This document shows positions 7,084 to 18,471 of a stretch of 64,000 bases of DNA, piece by piece; position 1 is the first letter of the stretch; every line of letters begins with the position of its first letter. This DNA is from Gillisella vitis. Lineage in GTDB: Bacteria; Pseudomonadota; Alphaproteobacteria; Rhizobiales; Rhizobiaceae. A model generated the notes under the pieces. That model was not told where the DNA came from. It saw only the letters and a program-made list of their open reading frames with translations, and made no database searches. Location: assembly GCF_001541345.2 (NCBI RefSeq), contig NZ_LMVL02000001.1:868001-932000 (forward strand), given 5' to 3'. The position numbers and the translations under genes were made by a program.

Positions 7084-8880
7084 TTATTGCAAGCTGGCGA
7101 TATACGCCCGCCAGCCACCCAAATGCGTAATGTCTTCAGCACCTTCCAGGGCCGAAGGCTCGACGAGAAAACCCTTGGCGCTGGAGCCGTCATCCAGGAA
7201 TACCGTGCCGATACACATTGGCGAGGGGATCATATTGACGAACTGGCCGAAGCCTGCGGGTGTCAGCTGCCAGATTTCCACGGCAATCGCGGCACCTTGC
7301 TCGACCCGGACCAGACCGGGCTTGGGCGGTGTCTGGTTGGGCAGGGCAAATAGCTTATAGCTGGCCGATGTTGTCCCAGCCCGCAGGAAGCTGGCGTTGA
7401 GGCTGGTCAGTTGGTGGTTGAGCGGCATGCCGGACAGATGCGCGCCGACGACGATGACCGGGATCAGACCCTCGGCCTTTTCCACTGGCTTTTCTGGTGA
7501 CGTCGGCAGCGGCCAGCCGGTGGCACCGACGGTGGTGCCAAGGCGGCTGTGCAAGGCTGACCCCAGTGCTGCGGTCAGGCCATCGGCACCGAAGGGTGCC
7601 AACAGCGTGACGCTGGAGGGCAGGCCATCGCCGCGCTTGCCGGTCGGCACGGCAATGCCGCACATGTCCAGAAGATTGACGAAATTGGTATAGGTGCCGA
7701 GGCGTGAATTGGCCTTGATTGGCTCTTCTTCCAGATCGGCCAGCGTGTAATGGGTTGGGGCTGTCGGCACGCAGATCACATCGACGGAGGCGATCACCGG
7801 CGTCAACTGCTGCTTCAGCGCTTGCAGGCGGTACATGCCGGAAAAGGCATCCGCGGCAGTCAGGGTTTTGGCGGCGCTGTAGATCTTATGGGTCACCGGA
7901 TGGAAGCTTTCGGGCTTCGCATCGAAAAACTCTTTGACCGCCGCATAGCGCTCGGCCACCCAGGCGCCTTCATAGAGCAGGTTTGCGACCTCGTAAAAGC
8001 CTGAAAACGGCAGGTCCACGAGCGTGTGACCCATGGTCGACAATTCTGCCAGCGCCTTATCGAAAGCGGCTTCCATCAGGCTGTCGCCGAAGAATTCACG
8101 GTCGGCCTTGGCGGGAACGCCAATGCGCAGGACTGGTGCGGAGGCCATGGCATGGCCCACCGGCATGGGGCGGGAATAGGCATCCGTTGCGTCGGGTTTA
8201 GCAGCGACGGTGAAGACCTTATGGGTATCTTCCACCGTCAGCGCGAAGATCGATACGCAATCGAGGGTGCGGCAGGCGGGAATGACGCCGGTGGCCGAAA
8301 GCGCGCCGACCGAGGGCTTCAACCCGACAATGTTGTTCAGCCCGGCTGGAATGCGGCCAGAGCCTGCCGTGTCGGTGCCAAGCGCGAAGCTGACAATGCC
8401 TTGCGCCGTCGCCACCGCCGAACCGGAACTGGAGCCGCCGGGGACCAGTTTGGGATCGATCGCATTGCGGGGAATGGCATGGGGCGTGCGCACGCCGACC
8501 AGGCCGGTGGCGAATTGGTCGAGATTGGTCTTGCCGATCACCAAAGCGCCCGCGTCTTTCAACAGGCGCACCACAGTCGCATCGGTTTCGGGCGTGTAGG
8601 CATAGTCCGGGCAGGCGGCCGTGGTTGGCAGGCTCGCGACATCGATATTGTCCTTGACGGCAAAAGGAATGCCCCAGAGCGGCTTTGTCTCCGGTGAAAA
8701 AGCGCCGAGTGCTTGGGCCTGCTCCAGCAGGTCTGCCTTGTCAGCAAGCTTAAGGAAAATGCCGGGATCGTTGATGGCGGCGATGCGCGAAAATACCTCT
8801 TCGATCATCTCCTGTGGCGTCCAGCCAGAGGCATAGGCGGCGTGAAGCGATGCAATATCAAAAGCTTGAGTAAATGGCAT
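7084..8880 (-). CDS. atzF: Allophanate hydrolase (AtzF/TrzF type)
   Basis: Hydrolyses allophanate (urea-1-carboxylate) to two NH3 and two CO2, the last step of cyanuric acid and biuret breakdown. An N-terminal amidase-signature domain (about 1-440) carries K76, S150 and S174. The spacing between these residues equals that of the AtzF triad as I recall it. A C-terminal domain of about 150 residues matches the extra AtzF/DUR1 domain that handles the decarboxylated intermediate. Length is 598 aa, close to AtzF. It is the last gene of the ten-gene operon, three bases after the cupin gene. No biotin urea carboxylase is in the window, so the allophanate most likely comes from biuret. Confidence 0.9.
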   Translation of the reverse strand: MPFTQAFDIASLHAAYASGWTPQEMIEEVFSRIAAINDPGIFLKLADKADLLEQAQALGAFSPETKPLWGIPFAVKDNIDVASLPTTAACPDYAYTPETDATVVRLLKDAGALVIGKTNLDQFATGLVGVRTPHAIPRNAIDPKLVPGGSSSGSAVATAQGIVSFALGTDTAGSGRIPAGLNNIVGLKPSVGALSATGVIPACRTLDCVSIFALTVEDTHKVFTVAAKPDATDAYSRPMPVGHAMASAPVLRIGVPAKADREFFGDSLMEAAFDKALAELSTMGHTLVDLPFSGFYEVANLLYEGAWVAERYAAVKEFFDAKPESFHPVTHKIYSAAKTLTAADAFSGMYRLQALKQQLTPVIASVDVICVPTAPTHYTLADLEEEPIKANSRLGTYTNFVNLLDMCGIAVPTGKRGDGLPSSVTLLAPFGADGLTAALGSALHSRLGTTVGATGWPLPTSPEKPVEKAEGLIPVIVVGAHLSGMPLNHQLTSLNASFLRAGTTSASYKLFALPNQTPPKPGLVRVEQGAAIAVEIWQLTPAGFGQFVNMIPSPMCIGTVFLDDGSSAKGFLVEPSALEGAEDITHLGGWRAYIASLQ

Positions 8881-8883
8881 GGA

Positions 8884-9228
8884 TCAATTTTCCAATAGTG
8901 TTACGGGGCGATCCCATTGGATCAGGACGGTGCAGCCATCAATGCTCCACACGGAATGTTCGGTGCCTGCCGCATTGACGATATAGGAGCCTGGGCCAAA
9001 GGTGCCGGTCTCGTCCGACTGGCTGCCTTCCAGCACCATAATGGTTTCCAGCCCTTCGTGGCGGTGGCGGGGAACCGAGGCTCCGGCCTGATAGGCCAGA
9101 AGGGCAACGCCGGGCTGGTCGCCCTCAAAGCGGCGGATCCAGTGAATGGTCACACCATCACGGAACGCCTCATAGGGCAGGCTTTTCCAGCCCCCGGCCA
9201 GCATATTGTCACGGGTCGTTTCAGCCAT
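8884..9228 (-). CDS. Small cupin protein (ChrR-cupin type)
   Basis: A 114-aa single cupin domain. The likely metal ligands are H55, H57 and E61 (PRHRHEGLE) and H91 (GTEHSVW). The pattern resembles the cupin of ChrR-like proteins. I chose the ATG at 9228, which overlaps the end of the upstream cysteine hydrolase gene by eight bases (ATGGCTGA), over a longer frame lacking a ribosome site. Its place between the triuret-hydrolase-like and allophanate hydrolase genes suggests a role in ureide breakdown or sensing, but no function is established. It could be an enzyme, an intermediate-binding protein or a regulator. Confidence 0.8.
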
Positions 9229-9892
9229 GGGCAAGCGCCTCCAGAAAGGGGTCGAGATGGGCGGTCCAGCCGACAATGCCGCCCTGGGCGCGGATCATCT
9301 CCAGGGTCGCTTGTTTGAAGGCCGGGAAATAGCTGGCGGTGGCTTCTTCGATCAGTAGGCAGTCATAGCCCCGATCATTGGCCTCGCGCATCGTGGTCTG
9401 CACGCAGACCTCGGTGGTAACGCCCGCGAAGATCAATTGGGTAATGCCGCGAGATGTAAGCTCTTCACCGAGAGCGGTGGCGTAGAACGCACCCTTGCCG
9501 GGCTTTTCGATCACCAACTCGCCGTCAACAGGCGCAAGTTCCGGCAGAATGCCGGTGCCATATTCCCCTGCAATCAGGATGCGGCCCATCGGTCCCTCAT
9601 CGCCAATTCGCAAAGTGGGATTGCCGCGATTGCGCTTGGCATCCGGCAGGTCGGAGAGATCGGGCCTGTGGCATTCCATCGTGTGGATGACGGTAAGACC
9701 GTGGGTGCGGGCCGCCTCCAGCAGGCGTTTCACATCCGGCACGATGGCGCTGACGAGGCTGACATCATTGCCGAGCGTCTCGCCAAAGCCACCCGGCTCG
9801 GTGAAATCGCGCTGCATGTCGATGATGACAAGCGCCGCCTGATCCAGCTTCAACGGGAAGGCGAAGGGTTGGGCTTTGATATCCACCATCAT
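9221..9892 (-). CDS. trtA: Cysteine hydrolase, isochorismatase-like; probable triuret hydrolase
   Basis: Amide hydrolase of the isochorismatase-like superfamily with catalytic triad D25 (VIIDMQRDF), K130 (IEKPGKGAF) and C163 ([11 protein letters not shown]). It is clearly related to, but distinct from, the biuret hydrolase at 12470 in the same operon. In characterised clusters a second such enzyme next to biuret hydrolase is triuret hydrolase (TrtA), which makes biuret and carbamate. The assignment rests on this context. Ureidoacrylate amidohydrolase (RutB) is the main alternative, but no rut genes are present. ATG 9892 overlaps the ATPase stop by ATGA. A second ATG follows at 9889. Confidence 0.7.
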
Positions 9893-11415
9893 GCATGTCC
9901 TGCCATATGGGCACCGATCACGGCAATGTCAGCGCCGCGCGCCGGGGTCTCGTACACCAGCCTGCCATCCGACATCACGACAATGCGGTCGGACATTTCC
10001 ATCAACTCATCCAGATCCTCGGAAAACAGCAGCACGGCGCTGCCATTGTTACGCGCCTTCATGATCCGGGCGCGGATTTCGGCGACGGCGGAAAAATCCA
10101 GACCGAAACAGGGGTTAGAGACAACCAGCAGATCGACATCGCCGGTCAGCTCCCGCGCCAGCACGGCGCGCTGCACATTGCCACCCGACAGCGAGGCAAT
10201 CGGCGAGGCGGGCGAGGCGGTCTTGACCTTGAAATCGGCGATCAACCGCCCGGCTGTCTCGCGCATCGCCTTGGCATTCAGCCAGAACCGGGTCCTTCCC
10301 TCGGCATCCACATCGAAATCGCGAAAACTCAGGTTCTCAGCCACCGACATTCTCGGCGCGCAGGCATTCAGCAGCGGTTCTTCCGGGATAAAGCGAACAT
10401 TGGCGGCCCGCGTTTCCTGACGAGTGGCGGTGTAGGGTTGGTCCTTGACCGTGATGTCGCCCGCCTCGGCAGGCCGTTGCCCGGCCAGTACTTCGGCAAA
10501 TTCCTTCTGGCCATTGCCGGAAATGCCGGCAATCCCGACGATTTCGCCAGCTCTGACCTTGAGATCATCGACCTCGATGCTTTTCAAGCCGCTGCGGTCA
10601 CGGGTTTTCATCCCCCGGATCGACAGGACGGAGGGGCTTGCGTCCGCGACCGGCAAGCGGCTGTCGAGTTCGGCCAGCTTAACATCGCCGATCATCATCG
10701 CTGCCATGTCCTGCGTCGTCAGGTCGGCTGTGCGGCCTGAGCCGACCAGCTTGCCCCGCCTTAGCACCGACACCGCATCGGCAAATTTGCGCACCTCATG
10801 GAATTTGTGGGAAATCATCAGCACGGTCAGTGCCCCACGCTCGGTCATGCCCCGCACCAGGCCCAGCATGTCGTCAGCCTCGGCGGGTGTCAGCACCGAT
10901 GTCGGCTCGTCAAGGATCAGGAACCGGCGTCCGAGGTAGAGCTGCTTGATGATTTCCAGCTTCTGCTTTTCACCCGCCGATAATTCCCGCACTGGGCGTT
11001 CCAGCGGAATCTGGAAGGGCATGGTCGCCATGAAATCCTTGAGCGCCTGACGTTCGCGCCGCCAGTTGATCATTGCAGGCACCGCATTGCGGCTGATGAC
11101 CAGATTTTCCGCTCCGGTCAGGGACGGCACCAGCGTGAAATGCTGGTAGACCATGCCAAGCCCCAGCGCTGCCGCATCGCGGGGCGAGGCGATCTCCACC
11201 TCGCGGTCCTCGACCAGCAATTGGCCCGAGGTCTGGCGGTAAAAGCCCATGATGCATTTGACCAGCGTCGATTTTCCCGCGCCGTTTTCGCCGAGCAGGG
11301 CGTGGAACGAACCGGCCTGCACCTTGATGGAGACAGCATCGAGGGCGGTGAAGCTGCCGAACCGCATGGTCATGGCGGCGGTCTCGATGTTGATGGCACT
11401 TCCGCTGGGCTTCAT
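9889..11415 (-). CDS. ABC transporter ATP-binding protein, BMP/nucleoside-type, two ABC domains
   Basis: ATPase with two fused nucleotide-binding domains (508 aa), as in ribose and nucleoside importers. Domain 1 has intact Walker [10 protein letters not shown], signature [11 protein letters not shown] and [11 protein letters not shown]. Domain 2 has the degenerate P-loop GISGNGQKE, signature [16 protein letters not shown] and a Walker B in which the usual acidic pair is replaced ([10 protein letters not shown]). That asymmetry is normal for the family. It serves the two permeases and BMP-type binding protein upstream in the operon. It is coupled by 4-base overlaps to the ring-opening amidohydrolase before it and the cysteine hydrolase after it. 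Confidence 0.92.
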
Positions 11416-12473
11416 ATTACGTTCTCCCGCTCGACAATAATTGCCACCGGCCCACCGCCGGGCGGTCCCTGATGTTCAGCTCCACCAGACACATACAGGT
11501 CCGTTTCCCCGAACACGCCCGCCAGCACACCGCCGACAAAGGCGCGGGCGTGGCGGGTGCCGGAAATGTCGCTATCCTCGAGCATCGTGTGGCGCTTGCC
11601 CCGCACCGTGCCGCGGGGATCGGGTTCGGCCTTGGCCAGTACGGCGCTCAGTTTTCCAAGCGGCATGTCGGACCAGGCGGCCCGCACGCTCGGCGCATCC
11701 ATAGCGTCGAACATCACGGTATGCGTCATGGCAAATGGCCCGCTCCAATGATCGCTCATGCCGAGAACGATGATTTCGTGATCGGTCAGTTCAACGCCCG
11801 CCGAGGTGGAGGCACGGGCGGAATAAAGGTCCAGCGTGCGGCAGATGTCGATATCCTTGATATCATCCATATCAAGCTCGCCCAGCGCTACCGCCACACC
11901 CAGCGCTGATGCGCCGCGTGAATAACCCATGGATTTCAGCGTTTCGGCAATAACCGTGCGTTTGCCACGCGCCTGGGCCTGCGCCACCCGCGCTGAGGTG
12001 AGCAGCGGGCATTTGATCTGGACGAAATGCACGTCTGCTGGATCGTCGATCCCGGCATCAGCCATGGCAGTGCGTACGCCCTGGGCGACCAGATCCACCT
12101 GTTCCTTGCGGCCCAGATTTTCGGGTAGGAGATCGGCTGTGCGGGCAACGCCGATGGCGAGCGAACGGTTGGGCGCTGCCTCCACCCGTTCACGGGCAAA
12201 AATCGTCCAATGGGGCGACAGCGCCCCTTCGGTGCCGCCTGACATGACGATGGAAACGCCTGTTACACCGAGGCGGGCAAACAGCTGTTCGAACGTAGCC
12301 GTGGCAAAACCACGGGTAAAGTCGTTGACGCAGCCATTGCCCTCCGTCTTGCCTAGCACCGCGACGATGCTGTGCGGATCGAGGCCGCTACCAATCAGCG
12401 CTTCGACGCCGGATATGTCATCCGGGGCAGAGGCGGCAACGCGGTAAACCGAGGCGCGGAAGCATGTGGTCAC
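11412..12473 (-). CDS. atzD: Ring-opening amidohydrolase; probable cyanuric acid amidohydrolase
   Basis: Member of the small cyanuric acid amidohydrolase/barbiturase family (353 aa), built of three similar domains that each supply a Ser-Lys pair. I place these at K42/S78 ([16 protein letters not shown]), K154/S224 (QIKCPLL, SAGVE) and K281/S329 ([22 protein letters not shown]). AtzD opens cyanuric acid to 1-carboxybiuret, which becomes biuret. Barbiturase opens barbituric acid instead. The sequence alone does not decide, but biuret hydrolase and allophanate hydrolase in the same operon favour cyanuric acid. It overlaps the biuret hydrolase gene by ATGA. Confidence 0.82.
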
Positions 12474-13171
12474 GGCAGGGCCTCGATCAGGTCTTTCGAA
12501 TGGGAGACCGCGCCGAACACGCCGCCCTGCATTTTCACCATTTTGATGGCGGCGAGATGATTGCCGTAATCAGTCGCTCCGCAGCAATCTTCCAGCAGCA
12601 GGCATTCAAAGCCCCGGTCATTGGCCTCGCGCATGGTTGTGTGGACGCAGACATCGGTGGTGATGCCGGTCAAGATGATATTCTGGATGCGCTTCTGGTT
12701 GAGGATCAGTTCGAGATCCGTGGCGCAGAATGACCCCTTGCCGGGCTTGTCGATAATGGTTTCGCCATCCAGCGGGGCCAGCTCTTCGATAATGTTCCAG
12801 CCCGGCTCGCCGCGCACCAGAATGCGGCCGCAGGGGCCTGGATCGCCGATGCCGGATTTGATGCGCTGCGAGCGCCAGCGCTTGTTGGCGGGCAGATCTG
12901 CCAGATCTGGGCGATGGCCTTCGCGGGTGTGGATGATATGGTAACCCTTGGCGCGCATCGCTGCCAGCACCGCCTTGATCGGCTCAATCGGCGCGCGCAC
13001 CAGAGACAGATCATAGCCCATATGATCGACATAGCCGCCGGGGCCGCAGAAATCGGTTTGCATGTCGATGATGATGAGCGCGGTATTATCAGGCCGCCAC
13101 TCCCCGTTATAGGGCCAGGGATAGGGATCGGCGGCAAGCGTGTGAAGTTTTGTCTCTGTGGACATATCCAT
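12470..13171 (-). CDS. biuH: Biuret hydrolase (cysteine hydrolase family)
   Basis: Converts biuret to allophanate and NH3. The triad D36 (IIIDMQTDF), K142 ([10 protein letters not shown]) and C175 ([11 protein letters not shown]) falls at the positions I recall for BiuH of Rhizobium leguminosarum bv. viciae 3841. Long stretches such as [19 protein letters not shown] and the ending [18 protein letters not shown] also match that enzyme from memory. Length is 233 aa. It lies between formamidase (8 bases upstream) and the ring-opening amidohydrolase (ATGA overlap), which places it centrally in a cyanuric acid/triuret route. This is the most secure substrate assignment in the operon. Confidence 0.92.
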
Positions 13172-13179
13172 GATGGCTC

Positions 13180-14196
13180 CTATTCGGCGGCGGATTTGGC
13201 CGGGTTGCCGTAGAGGCGAGTGGGTTTTTCAAAGCCGCAGACTGTGCCGTCGGTGATCTTGACTTGATCCTCCCAAGGCAAGCGATAGCGGCCTGCTGCC
13301 AGGTCGTGCATATAAGTATAGGGCGCGTCCTGCGCCCCACCGGCAACCGCGACATAGCCGCGATGGCCGAGCTGGTAGATATTGTTTTCCACGCCCCAGC
13401 CCAGCCGCGCCTCGCGCACCAGATCGGGCCGGACCTCGGCAGTGATGATCTCGTTGACGCGGCCTGATGTGCCGTGGGCGATGATCGAGCCATCGAAATT
13501 GCAGATCATCCCTTCGCCCATGCTGTCGAACGTGCCATCGGAACCGCACATGCAGACATTGGCAGTCACCATCAGATTGCAGAAAGCGTTGGACTGGTTG
13601 GTAAAGCGCCAGGAGTCGCGGATCGGTGCGGTATAGCCTGCCGTGCGGATCATGATTTCTGTGCCCTTATAGGCGCATTCCCTGGCCATTTCCGGGAACA
13701 TGCCATCGTGGCAGATGATCAGCGCCAGCTTGGCGCCCTTCGGCCCGTCGATGACGGGAATGCCGAGATCGCCCGGCTCCCATGGCTCGACCGGCACCCA
13801 AGGATGCATCTTGCGATAATAGAGCTTCAGTTCGCCGGTGTCGTCGATGATAATGCCGGAATTATAGGGCATGCCGCCGGGATTATATTCCATGATCGAG
13901 AAACAGCCCCAGATGCGGTTCTGTTTGCAGGCGGCCTTGAAGGCGGCCACTTCCGGCCCATCCATCCGGCACATGATTTCAGGGTTGATGTCCATTGAAA
14001 GGCCGTGCAGGGCATATTCGGGAAATACCACCAGATCCATGCCCGGCTGGTTGCGCCGGGCCTTGGCGACGAGATCAACGATCACCTGGGTCTGGCGGGC
14101 CAGATCCTCTCGCGTCACGGTGACGGGGAGCTGCAATTGCACGAGGCCGATGCCGACCCCGTGTTCTGATTTGTTCAATCCGCCCAATCCGTTCAT
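13180..14196 (-). CDS. amiF: Formamidase, nitrilase superfamily
   Basis: Hydrolyses formamide to formate and NH3. The nitrilase-type triad is E60 ([10 protein letters not shown]), K129 (YYRKMHPW) and C162 ([11 protein letters not shown]), matching E60 and the other positions of the Helicobacter pylori AmiF closely. The C-terminal block [17 protein letters not shown] with [16 protein letters not shown] is specific to the AmiF/AmiE group. Length is 338 aa. It sits between the permease and biuret hydrolase genes, so it is expressed with the ureide pathway. Formamide is not a known intermediate of that pathway, so the enzyme may add another amide nitrogen source or have a shifted substrate. Confidence 0.88.
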
Positions 14197-14211
14197 GGGA
14201 ACCTCCTGTGG

Positions 14212-15138
14212 CTATTTGGTCAGCGACAGCGCCGCCGGAGCGCCGGACAGCGCCCGTGTCGGTGACGATGTGATGATGAGAATGATCAGGGTCAGCACAT
14301 AAGGTGCAGCATAAAACAGATAATAGCCCTCGCTGACGCCGACCGATTGCAGCGCCGGACCGAGCGCGCCAGCCCCGCCGAACAGCAGGGACGCCAGCAC
14401 GCAGCCGAGCGGGTTCCAGCGGGCGAAAATCACCAGCGCCACCGCCATTAGGCCTTGGCCGGACGAAATCCGCTCGTTCCAGGAGCCGGGATAAAACAGC
14501 GACAAATAGGCACCACCCACCGCCGCCAGCGCCCCGCCTGCCATGGTTGCCAGCAGGCGCACGGTGTCCGGGTTTATGCCCATGGCACGCGCCGCATCCG
14601 AACTGTCACCGACGACCCGCAGGATCAGGCCGATCCGGGTATTCTTCAGCGCCCACCAGAGCACCAGCGCCAGCACAAGGCCGATGACGAACAGGATGTT
14701 GATGGTCAACGCCGCCTGAATTTGCGGCAGATGCGACCAGAAGCCAAGCGAAATCACTGGCAGTTTTGGGGCGACCGGCTGGATGAATGGCTTGCCGAAG
14801 AAGAAGGCGAGGCCCAGCCCGAATTGCATCATCGCGATGCCGATGGCGATGTCGTTGACCTTTGGAAACTTGCAGATAAAGCCATGCAGCAGGCCAAACA
14901 GCGATCCGGCCACCATGGCCGCGGCCACGCCAGCCCAGGGCGAACCGGTCATGACCGCCACGGCATAGGCGGCCATGGCGCCAAACACCAATGTGCCTTC
15001 AAGGCCGAGATTGATGCGGCCCGACCGTTCCGTCAGGGTTTCACCGAGGCTGACGAAGATGAAGGGGGTGGAGACACGGATAGCACCCGCCAATATCGCC
15101 AGCGGCACGCCCCAGAGGCCCAGTGCGCTATCGTCCAT
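14212..15138 (-). CDS. BMP-type ABC transporter permease (second)
   Basis: Inner-membrane permease of the BPD_transp_2 family (308 aa, about eight hydrophobic segments), as in nucleoside importers. The LTERSGRINLGLEGTLVFGA signature near the N-terminus is typical. I chose ATG 15138 because it overlaps the stop of the first permease gene (ATGA) and follows GAAAGGAGA. A longer frame upstream has no support. Its partner permease is directly before it, and formamidase follows after 15 bases. Confidence 0.92.
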   Translation of the reverse strand: MDDSALGLWGVPLAILAGAIRVSTPFIFVSLGETLTERSGRINLGLEGTLVFGAMAAYAVAVMTGSPWAGVAAAMVAGSLFGLLHGFICKFPKVNDIAIGIAMMQFGLGLAFFFGKPFIQPVAPKLPVISLGFWSHLPQIQAALTINILFVIGLVLALVLWWALKNTRIGLILRVVGDSSDAARAMGINPDTVRLLATMAGGALAAVGGAYLSLFYPGSWNERISSGQGLMAVALVIFARWNPLGCVLASLLFGGAGALGPALQSVGVSEGYYLFYAAPYVLTLIILIITSSPTRALSGAPAALSLTK

Positions 15139-16301
15139 CAATGGTCTCCTTTCGCGGCGTCCGGCTGTTTCCAAAGTTCGGGATTAAAGACGCGGAACCG
15201 GCCATACAGCGTTTCGCAAAACAGTATGACCACGAACAGCGTGCCTTGAAGCACCAGCACGGTGGCATCCGGCAGGCCCATGCGGCGCTGGATCAAGCCG
15301 CCGGACGCGGTGATGCCGCCTAGAAAAATCGCGACGGGAATGATCGCCAGCGGATTTTGCCGGGCGAGGAAAGCGACGAGAATGCCGGTATAGCCATAGC
15401 CCGCCACCAGCGCGCCATTGGCGCTGCCCTGCACGGCGGCTACTTCGATCATCCCGGCAAGGCCTGCAAAGCCGCCAGCCAGCGCTGTAAAGCCGACGAT
15501 CAAACGTCCAACCGGCAGGCCCTGGATCTGGGCGGCGCGCATATTGCCGCCAGCGATCCGCGCCGCAAAACCGATGCTGGTCCATTCGATAACGATATAG
15601 GAGAGGATGCAGGCGATGACGCCGACCGCCAGCCCCCAATGCACGTCCATGCCGGGGATCTTGCCGATCATGTCGGTGGCGGACAGGGGCAGGGTCGAGG
15701 GCTTGTTGAGGCTGGCTGGATCGCGCAGCGGCCCTTCGATCAGGTGGTTCATCAGCGCGATGGCGATATAGGCCAGCAGCAGCGAGGATATGGTTTCATT
15801 GACGCCGCGATAATGTTTCAACGCTCCGGCAAAGCCGATCCATACTCCGCCCGCCAGCATGGCGCAGAAGCCCATGACGATCCAGAGGACTGGCGGACTG
15901 AAGCCTGGTGCGAGTGGCACGGCAATGGCCGCCGCCGCCAAGCCGCCCAATACCAGCGCGCCCTCCGCGCCAATGATCGTCAGGCCGAGGCGGGCCGGAA
16001 GCGCCACGCAGAGTGCGGTCAGTAGCAGCGGGGCGGCCCGGCTAAGGGCATTTTGCAGCGAAAACCACGAGCCGAAGCCACCGGCAAACATCAGCTGGAA
16101 CAGTTGCAGCGGCGATTTGCCAATGGCGGTGATGAACAGGCTGAACAGGCCAAGCCCGATCAGCACGGCCAGCAGAGTGATTGCCACCGGTTCAGCGCGG
16201 CGGGCCAGCCATTCCACCATCGGACGCAGTGCGTGACGCCCCGCAGACTTGGGCTGCAAGCCATGCGGCAGGGGTGTCCGGCTTTCAGGTGTCGTGGTCA
16301 T
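15138..16301 (-). CDS. BMP-type ABC transporter permease (first)
   Basis: Permease of the same importer, with about ten hydrophobic segments and a cytoplasmic N-terminal tail, as in NupP/YufP-like proteins. Conserved pieces are GLTIIGAEGALVLGG, GVNETISSLLLAYIA and GYGYTGILVAFLARQNP. The start at 16301 is preferred over ATG 16316 because GGAGG lies eight bases before it, giving 387 aa. It follows the binding-protein gene directly and overlaps the next permease by ATGA. Confidence 0.9.
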   Translation of the reverse strand: MTTTPESRTPLPHGLQPKSAGRHALRPMVEWLARRAEPVAITLLAVLIGLGLFSLFITAIGKSPLQLFQLMFAGGFGSWFSLQNALSRAAPLLLTALCVALPARLGLTIIGAEGALVLGGLAAAAIAVPLAPGFSPPVLWIVMGFCAMLAGGVWIGFAGALKHYRGVNETISSLLLAYIAIALMNHLIEGPLRDPASLNKPSTLPLSATDMIGKIPGMDVHWGLAVGVIACILSYIVIEWTSIGFAARIAGGNMRAAQIQGLPVGRLIVGFTALAGGFAGLAGMIEVAAVQGSANGALVAGYGYTGILVAFLARQNPLAIIPVAIFLGGITASGGLIQRRMGLPDATVLVLQGTLFVVILFCETLYGRFRVFNPELWKQPDAAKGDH

Positions 16302-16320
16302 GGCCCGCGCCTCCATTGGT

Positions 16321-17445
16321 TCAGCCCATCGACCCCATGACGCCTTCGACCAGATAGTTCATGCTTTCCAACTCAATGGCGTCTTCGGCATAGTCCTTGC
16401 CCGAGGGGATGACGGTATTGCCCTTGTTGTCCTTCTGGCCGCCTTTGAAGACAGAAAAGCCGCCTGCCTTCATGGTGGCAAGTGTTGCCTCAAATTTGGT
16501 GCGGGCCTCAGCGGAGACGCCGGGACCCAGCGGGCTCATCTTGACGAAACCGTCCTTCAACCCGCCGCGCACGAAATTGCCGAGCTTTTCACCAGCCTGC
16601 GCCTTCTTGACGAAATCGGTATAGACATTGCCCCAGGCCCATTCTGCGCCCGTCAGGTATTTTTCAGGTGCCAGCGGGCTCTGGTTGGCGTGATAGCCGC
16701 AGACGAAAGCGCCGCGGCCAGCGGCGGTCTGCACCACCACCTTCGGGCTGTCGACATGGCAGGTGATGACATCGACGCCCTGATCAACCAGCGCATTGGT
16801 AGCTTCGGCTTCCTTGACGGCCAGCGACCACTCGCCGGTAAAGATCACCTGGCAGGTGATGGAGGGATCGACGGAGCGGGCGCCGAGCAGGAAGGCATTG
16901 ATATTCTGTACCACTTGCGGAATGGGCTTGGCGGCAACGAATCCGATCTTCTTCGACTTGGTCGCATAGGCGGCGGCAATGCCGTTCAGATATTGGCCCT
17001 GGAAGATGTAGCCGAAATAGCTGCCGGTATTGTCGGGGTTCTTGCCCTTCTGCCAGAGGCCGCCGCAATGGCGAAACTGCACGTCAGGATATTTCTGCGC
17101 CACCGCCAGCATATGGGGGTCGAAATAGCCGAAAGAGGTCGGAAATAGCAGGCTGGCGCCATCCAGATTGATCATCGATTCCATGGTTTTCTGGACATCG
17201 ACGGTCTCAGGCACATTCTCCTCTTCGACCACTGTCACGCCGGACAAGGCCTTGACCACGGCAGCGCCCTCGGCATGGGCCTGGTTATAGCCATAATCAT
17301 CCTTCGGTCCGACATAGATGAAGCCGACGGTGAGATCGGCAGCCTGCGCGGAACGCAGCATGCCGGGAGCAGCGATGGCGGCGGCGGCACCAAGGGCGGA
17401 GGTTTGCAGGAAATGACGGCGGGTGAAGGAAGGCGATCTGGTCAT
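16321..17445 (-). CDS. BMP-family substrate-binding protein (Tat signal)
   Basis: Periplasmic ligand-binding protein of the basic-membrane-protein (Bmp/PnrA) family, first gene of the ten-gene operon. The N-terminus has a twin-arginine signal (TRRHFLQTSALGAAAAIA, cleavage near AQA-AD). Conserved stretches are GFIYVGPKDDYGYNQAHAEG, FPTSFGYFDP and NAFLLGARSVDP. ATG 17445 follows CAGGGGAA. A long upstream frame is not used, because it would run through the sigma-54 promoter region. Length is 374 aa. Family members bind purine nucleosides, and the binding protein of the Pseudomonas atz cyanuric-acid uptake system is, to my recollection, also BMP-like. Cyanuric acid or a ureide is therefore a reasonable ligand. 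Confidence 0.9.
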   Translation of the reverse strand: MTRSPSFTRRHFLQTSALGAAAAIAAPGMLRSAQAADLTVGFIYVGPKDDYGYNQAHAEGAAVVKALSGVTVVEEENVPETVDVQKTMESMINLDGASLLFPTSFGYFDPHMLAVAQKYPDVQFRHCGGLWQKGKNPDNTGSYFGYIFQGQYLNGIAAAYATKSKKIGFVAAKPIPQVVQNINAFLLGARSVDPSITCQVIFTGEWSLAVKEAEATNALVDQGVDVITCHVDSPKVVVQTAAGRGAFVCGYHANQSPLAPEKYLTGAEWAWGNVYTDFVKKAQAGEKLGNFVRGGLKDGFVKMSPLGPGVSAEARTKFEATLATMKAGGFSVFKGGQKDNKGNTVIPSGKDYAEDAIELESMNYLVEGVMGSMG

Positions 17446-17500
17446 CGGTGGGTTCCCCTGTTTGATCCGGCTCTCGTCCGGTGCGGATGATTTGAGAAAG

Positions 17501-17508
17501 TGTATGCA
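17501..17508 (+). promoter_or_regulatory. Putative GntR operator copy 1 (TGTATGCA)
   Basis: First of three TGTATGCA copies in the divergent region. It overlaps the -12 element of the sigma-54 promoter, so a protein bound here would block RNA polymerase. Assignment to the adjacent GntR regulator is inferred from position. Confidence 0.5.
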
Positions 17509-17520
17509 ATCACCATGCCA
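17505..17520 (-). promoter_or_regulatory. Sigma-54 (RpoN) promoter of the ureide operon
   Basis: On the minus strand the sequence reads TGGCATGGTGATTGCA, matching the consensus TGGCACG-N4-TTGCW with one change (C to T). The GG and GC dinucleotides are separated by exactly ten bases, as required. Transcription would start near 17494, leaving a leader of about 50 bases to ATG 17445. This predicts nitrogen control through an activator such as NtrC. No convincing NtrC site was found. Confidence 0.75.
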
Positions 17521-17573
17521 GATCTGAAAGCCATGCTTGAAAGGAGCTTCCTGGCGGTCTCTGATTGCTGCCG

Positions 17574-17596
17574 GTGCATCTGTATGCACTTTTAAA
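17574..17596 (+). promoter_or_regulatory. Putative GntR operator copy 2 within a palindrome
   Basis: CTGTATGCACTTTTAAAA starts at 17580 and shares this extended sequence, with one difference, with copy 3. It also forms the right half of a perfect palindrome GTGCAT-CTGT-ATGCAC (17574-17589), the usual symmetry for a dimeric GntR/FCD regulator. It is about 80 bases upstream of the predicted start of the ureide operon. Confidence 0.55.
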
Positions 17597-17745
17597 ATTC
17601 AGATGAATATTTTTTGAGCGCGACTATTAAATTTGCTAAATCGTTCAGGGAAAAATCCAGGCGTTCGCAGGAAAGTTGTGTATTTTTATGAAAATCGTGC
17701 TTTGATATCAGTAGGGCAGTGGGTTAACCTGCCAAAATAAGTGAT

Positions 17746-17763
17746 TTTTAAAACTGCATACAG
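17746..17763 (-). promoter_or_regulatory. Putative GntR operator copy 3
   Basis: On the minus strand this reads CTGTATGCAGTTTTAAAA, in inverted orientation to copy 2. It lies about 25 bases before the ATG of the GntR gene, just downstream of its likely -10 box, a good location for autorepression. Confidence 0.55.
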
Positions 17764-17787
17764 ACGATAATAGACTGGGAAATTTCA

Positions 17788-18471
17788 ATGAATCAGCCGA
17801 GGGTGCGGGAACTTGTTCGTGCCGGCAATACGGTCGAACAGCTGGTGCGCGCCATTGCCGACCTGATCATCGTCGGTGACTTGAAGCCGGATGATAAGCT
17901 GGATGAAGGATCGCTTGCCACGCGGTTTGAGGTGTCACGCACGCCGGTGCGCGAGGCGCTTCGACAATTGTGCGCCATGGGATTGGTGGAGCGCAAGCCG
18001 AACAAGAGCGCTGTTGTTACCAACGTCACCGGTGGGTTTCTGACCTCGATGTTCGAGGCCATGGCGGAGCTTGAAGGGATGTGCGCCAGGCTTGCAGCGG
18101 AGCGCATGACGCTGGAGGAGCGCCGGGGGCTGGAGCGGATGCATCGCGATTCAATCCGTATTGTGCAGGCGGGGCAGACGGAGGATTATTCCGCCTATAA
18201 TATCGAGTTTCACAACCGGATCTATCAGGGCGCCCATAACCAGCATATTCTGGAATTGGTGACGCAGACCCGGTCGCGGCTGGCGCCGTTTCGCCGCGCC
18301 CAGTTCCGGCTGACGGGCCGCTTGTCCCTGTCCTTTCAGGAGCATGAGGCGATCGTCAACGCCATCCTGCGCGGCGAAAAAACGGCCGCCGCCGAAGCGG
18401 CCTATCGCCATGTCGAAATTGTCGGCGATGCCAGCAGCACATTGACCCAGCACACTTCTGGCAGGGATTGA
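17788..18471 (+). CDS. GntR-family transcriptional regulator, FCD domain
   Basis: A 227-aa DNA-binding regulator. The N-terminal winged helix (about 15-80) contains LATRFEVSRTPVREALRQL, the classic GntR recognition segment. The C-terminal part (about 90-215) is an FCD ligand domain with conserved Asp/His positions (FHNRIYQGAHN, HVEIV) that bind metal and a carboxylate ligand in relatives. It is divergent from the ureide operon and shares with it a region carrying three TGTATGCA sites. It is therefore the best candidate for the pathway's substrate-responsive repressor. It could also act on the peptide importer 18 bases downstream on the opposite strand. Confidence 0.92.
   Translation: MNQPRVRELVRAGNTVEQLVRAIADLIIVGDLKPDDKLDEGSLATRFEVSRTPVREALRQLCAMGLVERKPNKSAVVTNVTGGFLTSMFEAMAELEGMCARLAAERMTLEERRGLERMHRDSIRIVQAGQTEDYSAYNIEFHNRIYQGAHNQHILELVTQTRSRLAPFRRAQFRLTGRLSLSFQEHEAIVNAILRGEKTAAAEAAYRHVEIVGDASSTLTQHTSGRD

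Follow-up and report, generated by a model that had tools for sequence, protein, structure and literature searches.

The locus described here raises the question of whether one short stretch of DNA can serve both as the -12 element of a sigma-54 promoter and as the operator of a repressor. Sigma-54 promoters are usually discussed as activator-controlled, and to our knowledge, well-placed repressors on them are few. In the 64 kb of DNA analyzed (hereafter the window), the intergenic region concerned lies between a regulator gene, gntR, on the plus strand and an ABC transporter operon on the minus strand. The regulator (17788..18471, plus strand; 227 aa) matches PF00392 with 62.9 bits and PF07729 with 93.1 bits, both above the cut-offs. 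With an N-terminal GntR wHTH and a C-terminal FCD domain, it belongs to the FCD subfamily of the GntR superfamily, and among solved structures, GntR-family regulators such as 7xp0 (E 5e-24) come closest to it. The HutC model TIGR02018 gave 31 bits against a cut-off of 220, which does not support membership in HutC. The sequence models for LldR and NanR, which are FCD regulators with the same domain make-up and operator type and with sigma-70 as their known promoter class, also scored far below their cut-offs.

The operon, with all genes on the minus strand, starts with a BMP-family ABC substrate-binding protein (16321..17445; PF02608), followed by two ABC permeases (15138..16316 and 14212..15174; both PF02653). 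The second permease was listed among the open reading frames with a TTG start, and an ATG at 15138 is the likelier one. Further downstream are genes for a formamidase (13180..14196; NCBIfam PRK13287, 588 bits, cut-off 406), the biuret amidohydrolase BiuH (12470..13171; NF050097, 423 bits, cut-off 370), the cyanuric acid amidohydrolase AtzD (11412..12473; NF052395, 529 bits, cut-off 360), an ABC ATPase (9889..11415; PF00005), a second isochorismatase-like hydrolase (9221..9892), a cupin protein (8884..9276; PF12973), and, directly after the cupin gene, the allophanate hydrolase AtzF (7084..8880; TIGR02713, 802 bits, cut-off 511). The second hydrolase is BiuH-like but below the cut-off of the BiuH model (254 of 370 bits); because of this likeness, and because TrtA was found together with BiuH (PMC7948467, accessible text), it is probably the triuret hydrolase TrtA. 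The predicted gene products fit nitrogen scavenging through the breakdown of triuret, biuret, and cyanuric acid. As a separate observation, the region 7084-17445 appears to encode every step by which triuret, cyanuric acid, and biuret would be converted to ammonia, including that of AtzF, along with the formamidase.

For comparison, relatives were drawn from three sources. A search of 60 relatives with the GntR protein yielded 30 loci, and a search of 297 family genomes with the BMP protein (E up to 1e-60) gave 73 places in 71 genomes, of which 70 were taken as loci. The third source was a set of 80 named loci (the best of 467), with Agrobacterium vitis providing the nearest named genomes. Only loci with a BMP gene next to a GntR match of 58% or more were retained. 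These number 112, including 21 of L033-L100, and have 100 distinct upstream regions that form the main set; the regions are related sequences, close strains included, and are not independent of each other. The motif scan omitted L012-L030, which have no BMP match in 2-4 kb, as well as L031 and L032, which repeat L001 and L004; L096 also has no BMP match. Of the 80 named loci, 79 have BiuH, and the same number holds for the second hydrolase, the ATPase, and the cupin, whereas the formamidase is present in 49 and AtzD in 29; contig ends truncate some of these loci.

The candidate sigma-54 element, TGGCATGGTGATTGCA, lies at 17505..17520 on the minus strand, with -24 TGGCAT and -12 TTGCA. As the original prediction stated, it differs by one mismatch from TGGCACGN4TTGCW and has the -24 GG and -12 GC at exact spacing. 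Counting from the C of the -12 GC (17506), sigma-54 geometry places the predicted transcription start at 17494 (minus strand), the same position as had been expected. Judged within the window by itself, this match is no better than chance, as 13 matches with at most two mismatches were found and 15.8 were expected. Across the 5.75 Mb genome, the pattern TGGCAYRN4TTGC has 35 matches and the reversed control has eight. The same genome encodes one RpoN and has eight sigma-54 activator-domain matches over the cut-off, five of them strong (180-245 bits), with a model that also matches all 14 control genomes.

The lack of significance in one genome alone leaves room for an operon transcribed from a sigma-70 promoter, with the sigma-54 match being accidental or decayed. 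No sigma-70 promoter was found in a scan of 17400-17850; this counts against such a promoter, but only weakly because the scan used the E. coli consensus and just 0.5 matches were expected in shuffles. The comparison among relatives is more telling, as TGGCAYRN4TTGC is present in 100 of the 100 distinct upstream regions, and Markov-shuffled 200-nt upstream regions contained the sigma-54 pattern in 15 of 20,000 draws. In an alignment of the first 11 loci, the N4 varies and the -24 and -12 halves are constant. Furthermore, no comparably conserved stretch lies upstream of this element, except for an IHF-type site and the second operator introduced below. These patterns support a sigma-54 promoter at 17520-17505 and make transcription from a sigma-70 promoter extremely improbable.

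The 8-mer TGTATGCA was found at three sites in the window, at 17501-17508, 17581-17588, and 17755-17762 (minus strand), each within the gntR-BMP intergenic region. By count alone, this is weakly significant (mean 0.93; at least three sites in 5 of 100 shuffles). The extended 12-mer, TGYATRCASTTT, was matched three times across the whole 5.75 Mb, each time between gntR and the BMP gene, and never by the reversed control, such that the operator is private to the gntR-BMP intergenic region. The same holds around the best 80 of 467 named loci, where 176 of the 177 matches to TGYATRCASTT in 1,591,531 bases are inside a 510-bp interval holding the intergenic region. Three copies of the short palindrome TGYATRCA beside a regulator gene are the pattern expected of GntR/FCD operators, and given this linkage, we regard them as putative binding sites of the adjoining GntR/FCD protein. 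Operator O1 (TGCATACACTTT; 17497..17508, minus strand) overlaps the -12 element and has bases in common with its TTGC, O2 (TGTATGCACTTT; 17581..17592, plus strand) is 80 bp upstream of O1, and O3 (TGTATGCAGTTT; 17751..17762, minus strand) is upstream of gntR. The repeated operator motif of the original prediction thus reappears at three intergenic sites, the first of them on the -12 TTGC.

The -12 box TTGCA is also a half-site of the FCD operator (TTGCATRCAA), which might allow FCD repressors to be written onto sigma-54 promoters. For the same reason, the operator at -12 could be a by-product of the TTGCA common to both elements, with the repressor acting mainly at O2 and O3. Three loci in the named set (L113, L121, and L126) fit this explanation, having lost O1 and kept the sigma-54 element together with O2 and O3. 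However, TGYATRCA is kept over the -12 element in 97 of the 100 distinct upstream regions, and this conservation includes an STTT flank for which the sigma-54 consensus has no need. We consider a by-product quite improbable. All O1 sites of the main set have T immediately before TGYATRCA, a position occupied by C in 57% of O2 and 62% of O3; neither O2 nor O3 is preceded by a conserved -24. The two elements are also separable, since sigma-54 elements without O1 exist in the three named loci and in 12 distant loci (L079-L087 and L092-L094; BMP 50-54% identical). The latter have a sigma-54 match (zero to two mismatches) with no operator over it, and three of them have TGTATGCA 175-187 bp further upstream. 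These observations support O1 as an element separate from the sigma-54 promoter and superimposed on its -12.

Other homologous loci show diverse arrangements. The seven loci with BMP identities of 65-68% (L072-L078) have a similar operon with TTGYATGCAA over the -12 element, and a GntR homologue (41-49%) was found within 20 kb in three of these seven, two being cut by the end of the locus. In the 18 loci with BMP identities of 70-75% (L053, L054, and L056-L071), neither a sigma-54 match below three mismatches nor an operator was found in the stretch searched. A LysR-like gene was seen by eye upstream in five of six such loci inspected, and control of the transporter appears to have switched in this group. 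Nine additional loci (L088-L091, L095, and L097-L100) have no sigma-54 match under three mismatches.

Within the 450 bp searched, O2 is present in 94 and absent in six of the 100 regions, and O3 is present in 92 and absent in eight. In most of these 92 loci, O3 coincides with the -10 of what by eye looks like a gntR promoter of the type TTGAC-N17-CATSTG, a position consistent with autoregulation; the gntR promoter region of the window itself is without the TTGAC seen in relatives. O3 may be autoregulatory by its position. The distance between O1 and O2 is nearly fixed, being 79 bp in 35 loci, 80 bp in 47, and 81 bp in nine (together 91 of 94), with 90 bp in one locus and 91 bp in two. The spacing from O1 to O3 is suggestive of a preference for steps near 10.5 bp. 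With 33 clusters at 90% identity, Rayleigh R is 0.61 and the best period is 10.3; p is 7e-4 with 24 clusters (85%) and about 0.03-0.05 with four to six clusters (75-80%), and path-disjoint pairs give p of about 0.009 or 0.04 (13 or 17 pairs). Between O1 and O2, just above the -24 element, is a site resembling WATCAAN4TTR, the IHF consensus. In 69 of 100 loci this site deviates by no more than two mismatches, and in 50 by no more than one, with under one expected; three mismatches occur in nine of the 100 upstream regions and four or more in 22. In the window, the register at -44 to -32 (17526..17538, minus strand) is weak, with three mismatches.

These spacings raise the possibility of a loop, in which dimers at O1 and O2 would be brought together by an IHF bend of the 80 bp, locking the promoter closed and adding to occlusion of the -12 element. 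The near-constant O1-O2 distance, the IHF-type site in 69 of 100 loci, and the stepwise O1-O3 spacing point in this direction, as do O1-O2 distances of 90-91 bp in the other three loci with O2, 100-101 bp in L076 and L077, and 90 bp (three genomes) or 87 bp (one genome) at a different operon whose FCD regulator is distantly related. However, the main group holds a single independent change of O1-O2 spacing, 87 bp is out of step, and 80 bp corresponds to about 7.6 turns, which is no whole number. Moreover, O2 is absent from six of the 100 loci, and the window has a weak IHF-type site. Such a loop is conceivable, but we hold it to be doubtful.

The reading that we consider very probable is that the GntR/FCD protein blocks RNAP-sigma-54 until the substrate appears, on top of control by RpoN and an activator. 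Sequence and conservation establish the sigma-54 element, its overlap with O1, the presence of three operators, the operon content, and, in most relatives, the IHF-type site; from this layout we infer that the GntR protein binds O1-O3 and that binding represses. The sigma-54 promoter would drive an operon for uptake and breakdown of triuret and biuret as nitrogen sources, joined by cyanuric acid in loci that have atzD, and the divergently encoded protein would be a substrate-released repressor with three operators. Since O1 is written over the -12 element, bound repressor would exclude RNAP-sigma-54 from the promoter. O2, which most loci keep 79-81 bp upstream of O1, and O3, in front of gntR, would reinforce repression and provide autoregulation. 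With a repressor on the -12 element of a sigma-54 promoter, expression would need two conditions at once, namely, an active sigma-54 activator and an inducer that removes the repressor. The inducer is more likely biuret, triuret, or a product than cyanuric acid, since many loci lack atzD and still retain the regulator. Such a promoter would amount to a conserved AND-NOT gate in which global nitrogen control through sigma-54 and a local substrate repressor meet on the same bases, in an operon relevant to the soil turnover of biuret, triuret, and cyanuric acid. The natural variants (operator lost, sigma-54 without operator, and palindrome changed) make this logic directly testable.

The activator arm would respond to nitrogen limitation, probably through NtrC. 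In the original prediction, the operon was thought to need nitrogen limitation as well as release of a substrate-sensing repressor; conservation supports the sigma-54 promoter and the superimposed GntR-type operator, and the gene content fits nitrogen scavenging, but neither nitrogen limitation nor NtrC or another named activator finds such support. NtrC-type dyads (TGCACCN5GGTGCA-like, at most three mismatches) occur in seven of the 100 regions vs. five of 100 shuffled ones and no NtrC site was recognized. Sigma-54 promoters can lack an upstream activator site. Among generic 4+4 dyads, the commonest is AAACN8GTTT (21 regions), which is the operator flank, followed by A/T-rich ones (13-15 regions); the shuffles gave maxima of 6-12 for any dyad. 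GACTN5AGTC (10 regions vs. 0.1 expected), CATGN9CATG (nine vs. 0.55), and GGCAN11TGCC (seven vs. 0.15) are well above their individual expectations without exceeding the any-dyad shuffle maximum, and a UAS may be among them. Apart from a weak stretch rich in T (-28 to -21 from O2) and the IHF-type site, conservation at fixed positions revealed nothing enhancer-like. The motif GCCTA upstream of O2 was rejected as a conserved site, being scattered and present in 16 of 94 regions. Since no NtrC site or enhancer-like conservation was found, the case for nitrogen control, which we regard as likely to apply here, is built on the sigma-54 element together with the operon function.

The same search bears on another role for the regulator. 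FCD proteins can also activate, and the protein might be an activator or co-activator at O2 (about -90), with O1 as an autoinhibitory or fine-tuning site. The O2 spacing is nearly fixed, its distance is usual for sigma-54 enhancers, and no other enhancer site was recognized. On the other hand, Pfam shows GntR and FCD domains only, with no AAA+ domain to remodel sigma-54, and a protein sitting on O1 would block the promoter. Activation from O2 is highly unlikely.

Among the closest known systems are those of HutC and the LysR-type AtzR. In Pseudomonas aeruginosa, the region protected by HutC, a GntR-family protein, overlaps the sigma-54 site of hutU (PMC12977541; also reviewed in PMC8871633). 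In the accessible parts of these sources, the similarities are a GntR superfamily protein, a nitrogen-yielding catabolic operon, and an operator on a sigma-54 site, with repression predicted in our case. The hutU system also features NtrC and CbrB as activators, a substrate-derived inducer, and autoregulation, the counterparts of which are proposed here from sequence. The two differ in that HutC belongs to the HutC subfamily and has the operator TGTA-N2-TACA, whereas our regulator is of the FCD subfamily and has TGYATRCA, three operators, and shared -12 bases. The regulator may therefore work like HutC without being a HutC member. Both atz operons of Pseudomonas sp. ADP depend on sigma-54 and respond to nitrogen starvation by induction, and one of them is repressed by AtzR (PMC6834077, accessible text). 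This system resembles ours in having a cyanuric acid pathway and a transporter operon under sigma-54, nitrogen starvation, and a substrate-sensing regulator (the last two predicted in our case). However, AtzR up-regulates atzDGEHF, its repression occurs with cyanuric acid present, and the gene arrangement differs.

Because of HutC on hutU and AtzR on a sigma-54 atz operon, the regulatory logic is already known, and a GntR-type repressor on a -12 element is less unusual than the original prediction held. As judged from the loci compared and the source texts accessible, the novelty lies in the FCD subfamily, in -12 bases that are themselves shared, and in a layout of three operators that is conserved in most relatives with the gene pair. 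No FCD operator on a sigma-54 -12 element and no regulation of a biuH operon was found in the literature searched, which included PMC4362333 and of which most subscription papers were not part. Also, the accessible text of a sigma-54 regulon survey (PMC12316311) contains no occurrence of GntR, repressor, or biuret.

Operons with the same enzymes, BiuH and TrtA, are described for Rhizobium leguminosarum 3841 and Herbaspirillum (PMC7948467 and PMC5806882), and the main texts of these two papers do not mention GntR. On pRL10 of R. johnstonii 3841 (L171), the gene order from gntR to cupin and the promoter layout are the same as in the window. The 20.7 kb fetched for this locus has no AtzF match and has an amino acid transporter after the cupin; the 3841 operon contains AtzF according to PMC7948467.

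The combination of both elements recurs elsewhere. The composite TGGCAYRN4TTGCATRCA has 34 sites in 32 of the 297 family genomes, of which 28 belong to the biuret/triuret operon, and the reversed control is zero in every row of the count. Taking about 35 sigma-54 matches per genome, as counted in the genome of the window, and a chance of 1 in 512 for the five further bases, some 20 composites could arise by chance; the remaining six therefore carry weight only with an FCD gene, a second operator, or a longer match. Those with such support are at a NitT/TauT-type operon (L236, L237, L240, and L272, as well as L284 without a second operator) and at the allophanate hydrolase gene of G262. In G262 (L269/L285), this gene is 278 kb from the operon and has its own composite, TGGCATGTAAATTGCATACACTTT, with the same operator 12-mer; no AtzF match was found in the 20.7 kb of a locus with the same 30-base promoter sequence (L106). 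In genomes G001, G002, G016, and G323, an FCD regulator about 29-30% identical to ours is divergent to the NitT/TauT-type transporter, the sigma-54 match of which carries TGCATRCA on the -12 element, with a second operator upstream by 90, 90, 90, and 87 bp, respectively. G278 has the NitT/TauT composite and no second operator.

A broader proposal would be a recurring composite switch used by at least two distantly related FCD regulators (about 29-30% identity), together with an IHF-bent, phase-locked O1-O2 loop for biuret/triuret that goes beyond occlusion. We know of no IHF-bent, phase-locked repression loop at sigma-54 promoters, and this combined proposal seems unlikely.

The looser pattern TGGCAYRN4TTGYATRCA was found in seven of 289 class genomes, including that of the window. 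Among the six others, only L276 has a GntR hit in 3 kb; this is a TRAP operon with an FCD gene and a single case. Composites at urtA in G089, G187, and G253 were rejected as supported cases, having no GntR hit in the 3 kb loci, and may have arisen by chance. In L265-L267 (one genus, three genomes), the urtA sigma-54 match has TGCATGCA on the -12 element; the domain scan covered L266 only. In the one NitT/TauT region scanned (L282), the genes that follow encode an amidohydrolase, for which 8-oxoguanine deaminase is the best model, and a protein resembling gamma-glutamyltransferase, both below the cut-offs. Finally, the genome of the window has another sigma-54 match, TTGCTTGTATACAGC (L230; G000:C17:826183), which has TGTATACA just downstream of its -12 element and lies some 180 bases before a gene that by eye resembles one for a NitT/TauT binding protein.
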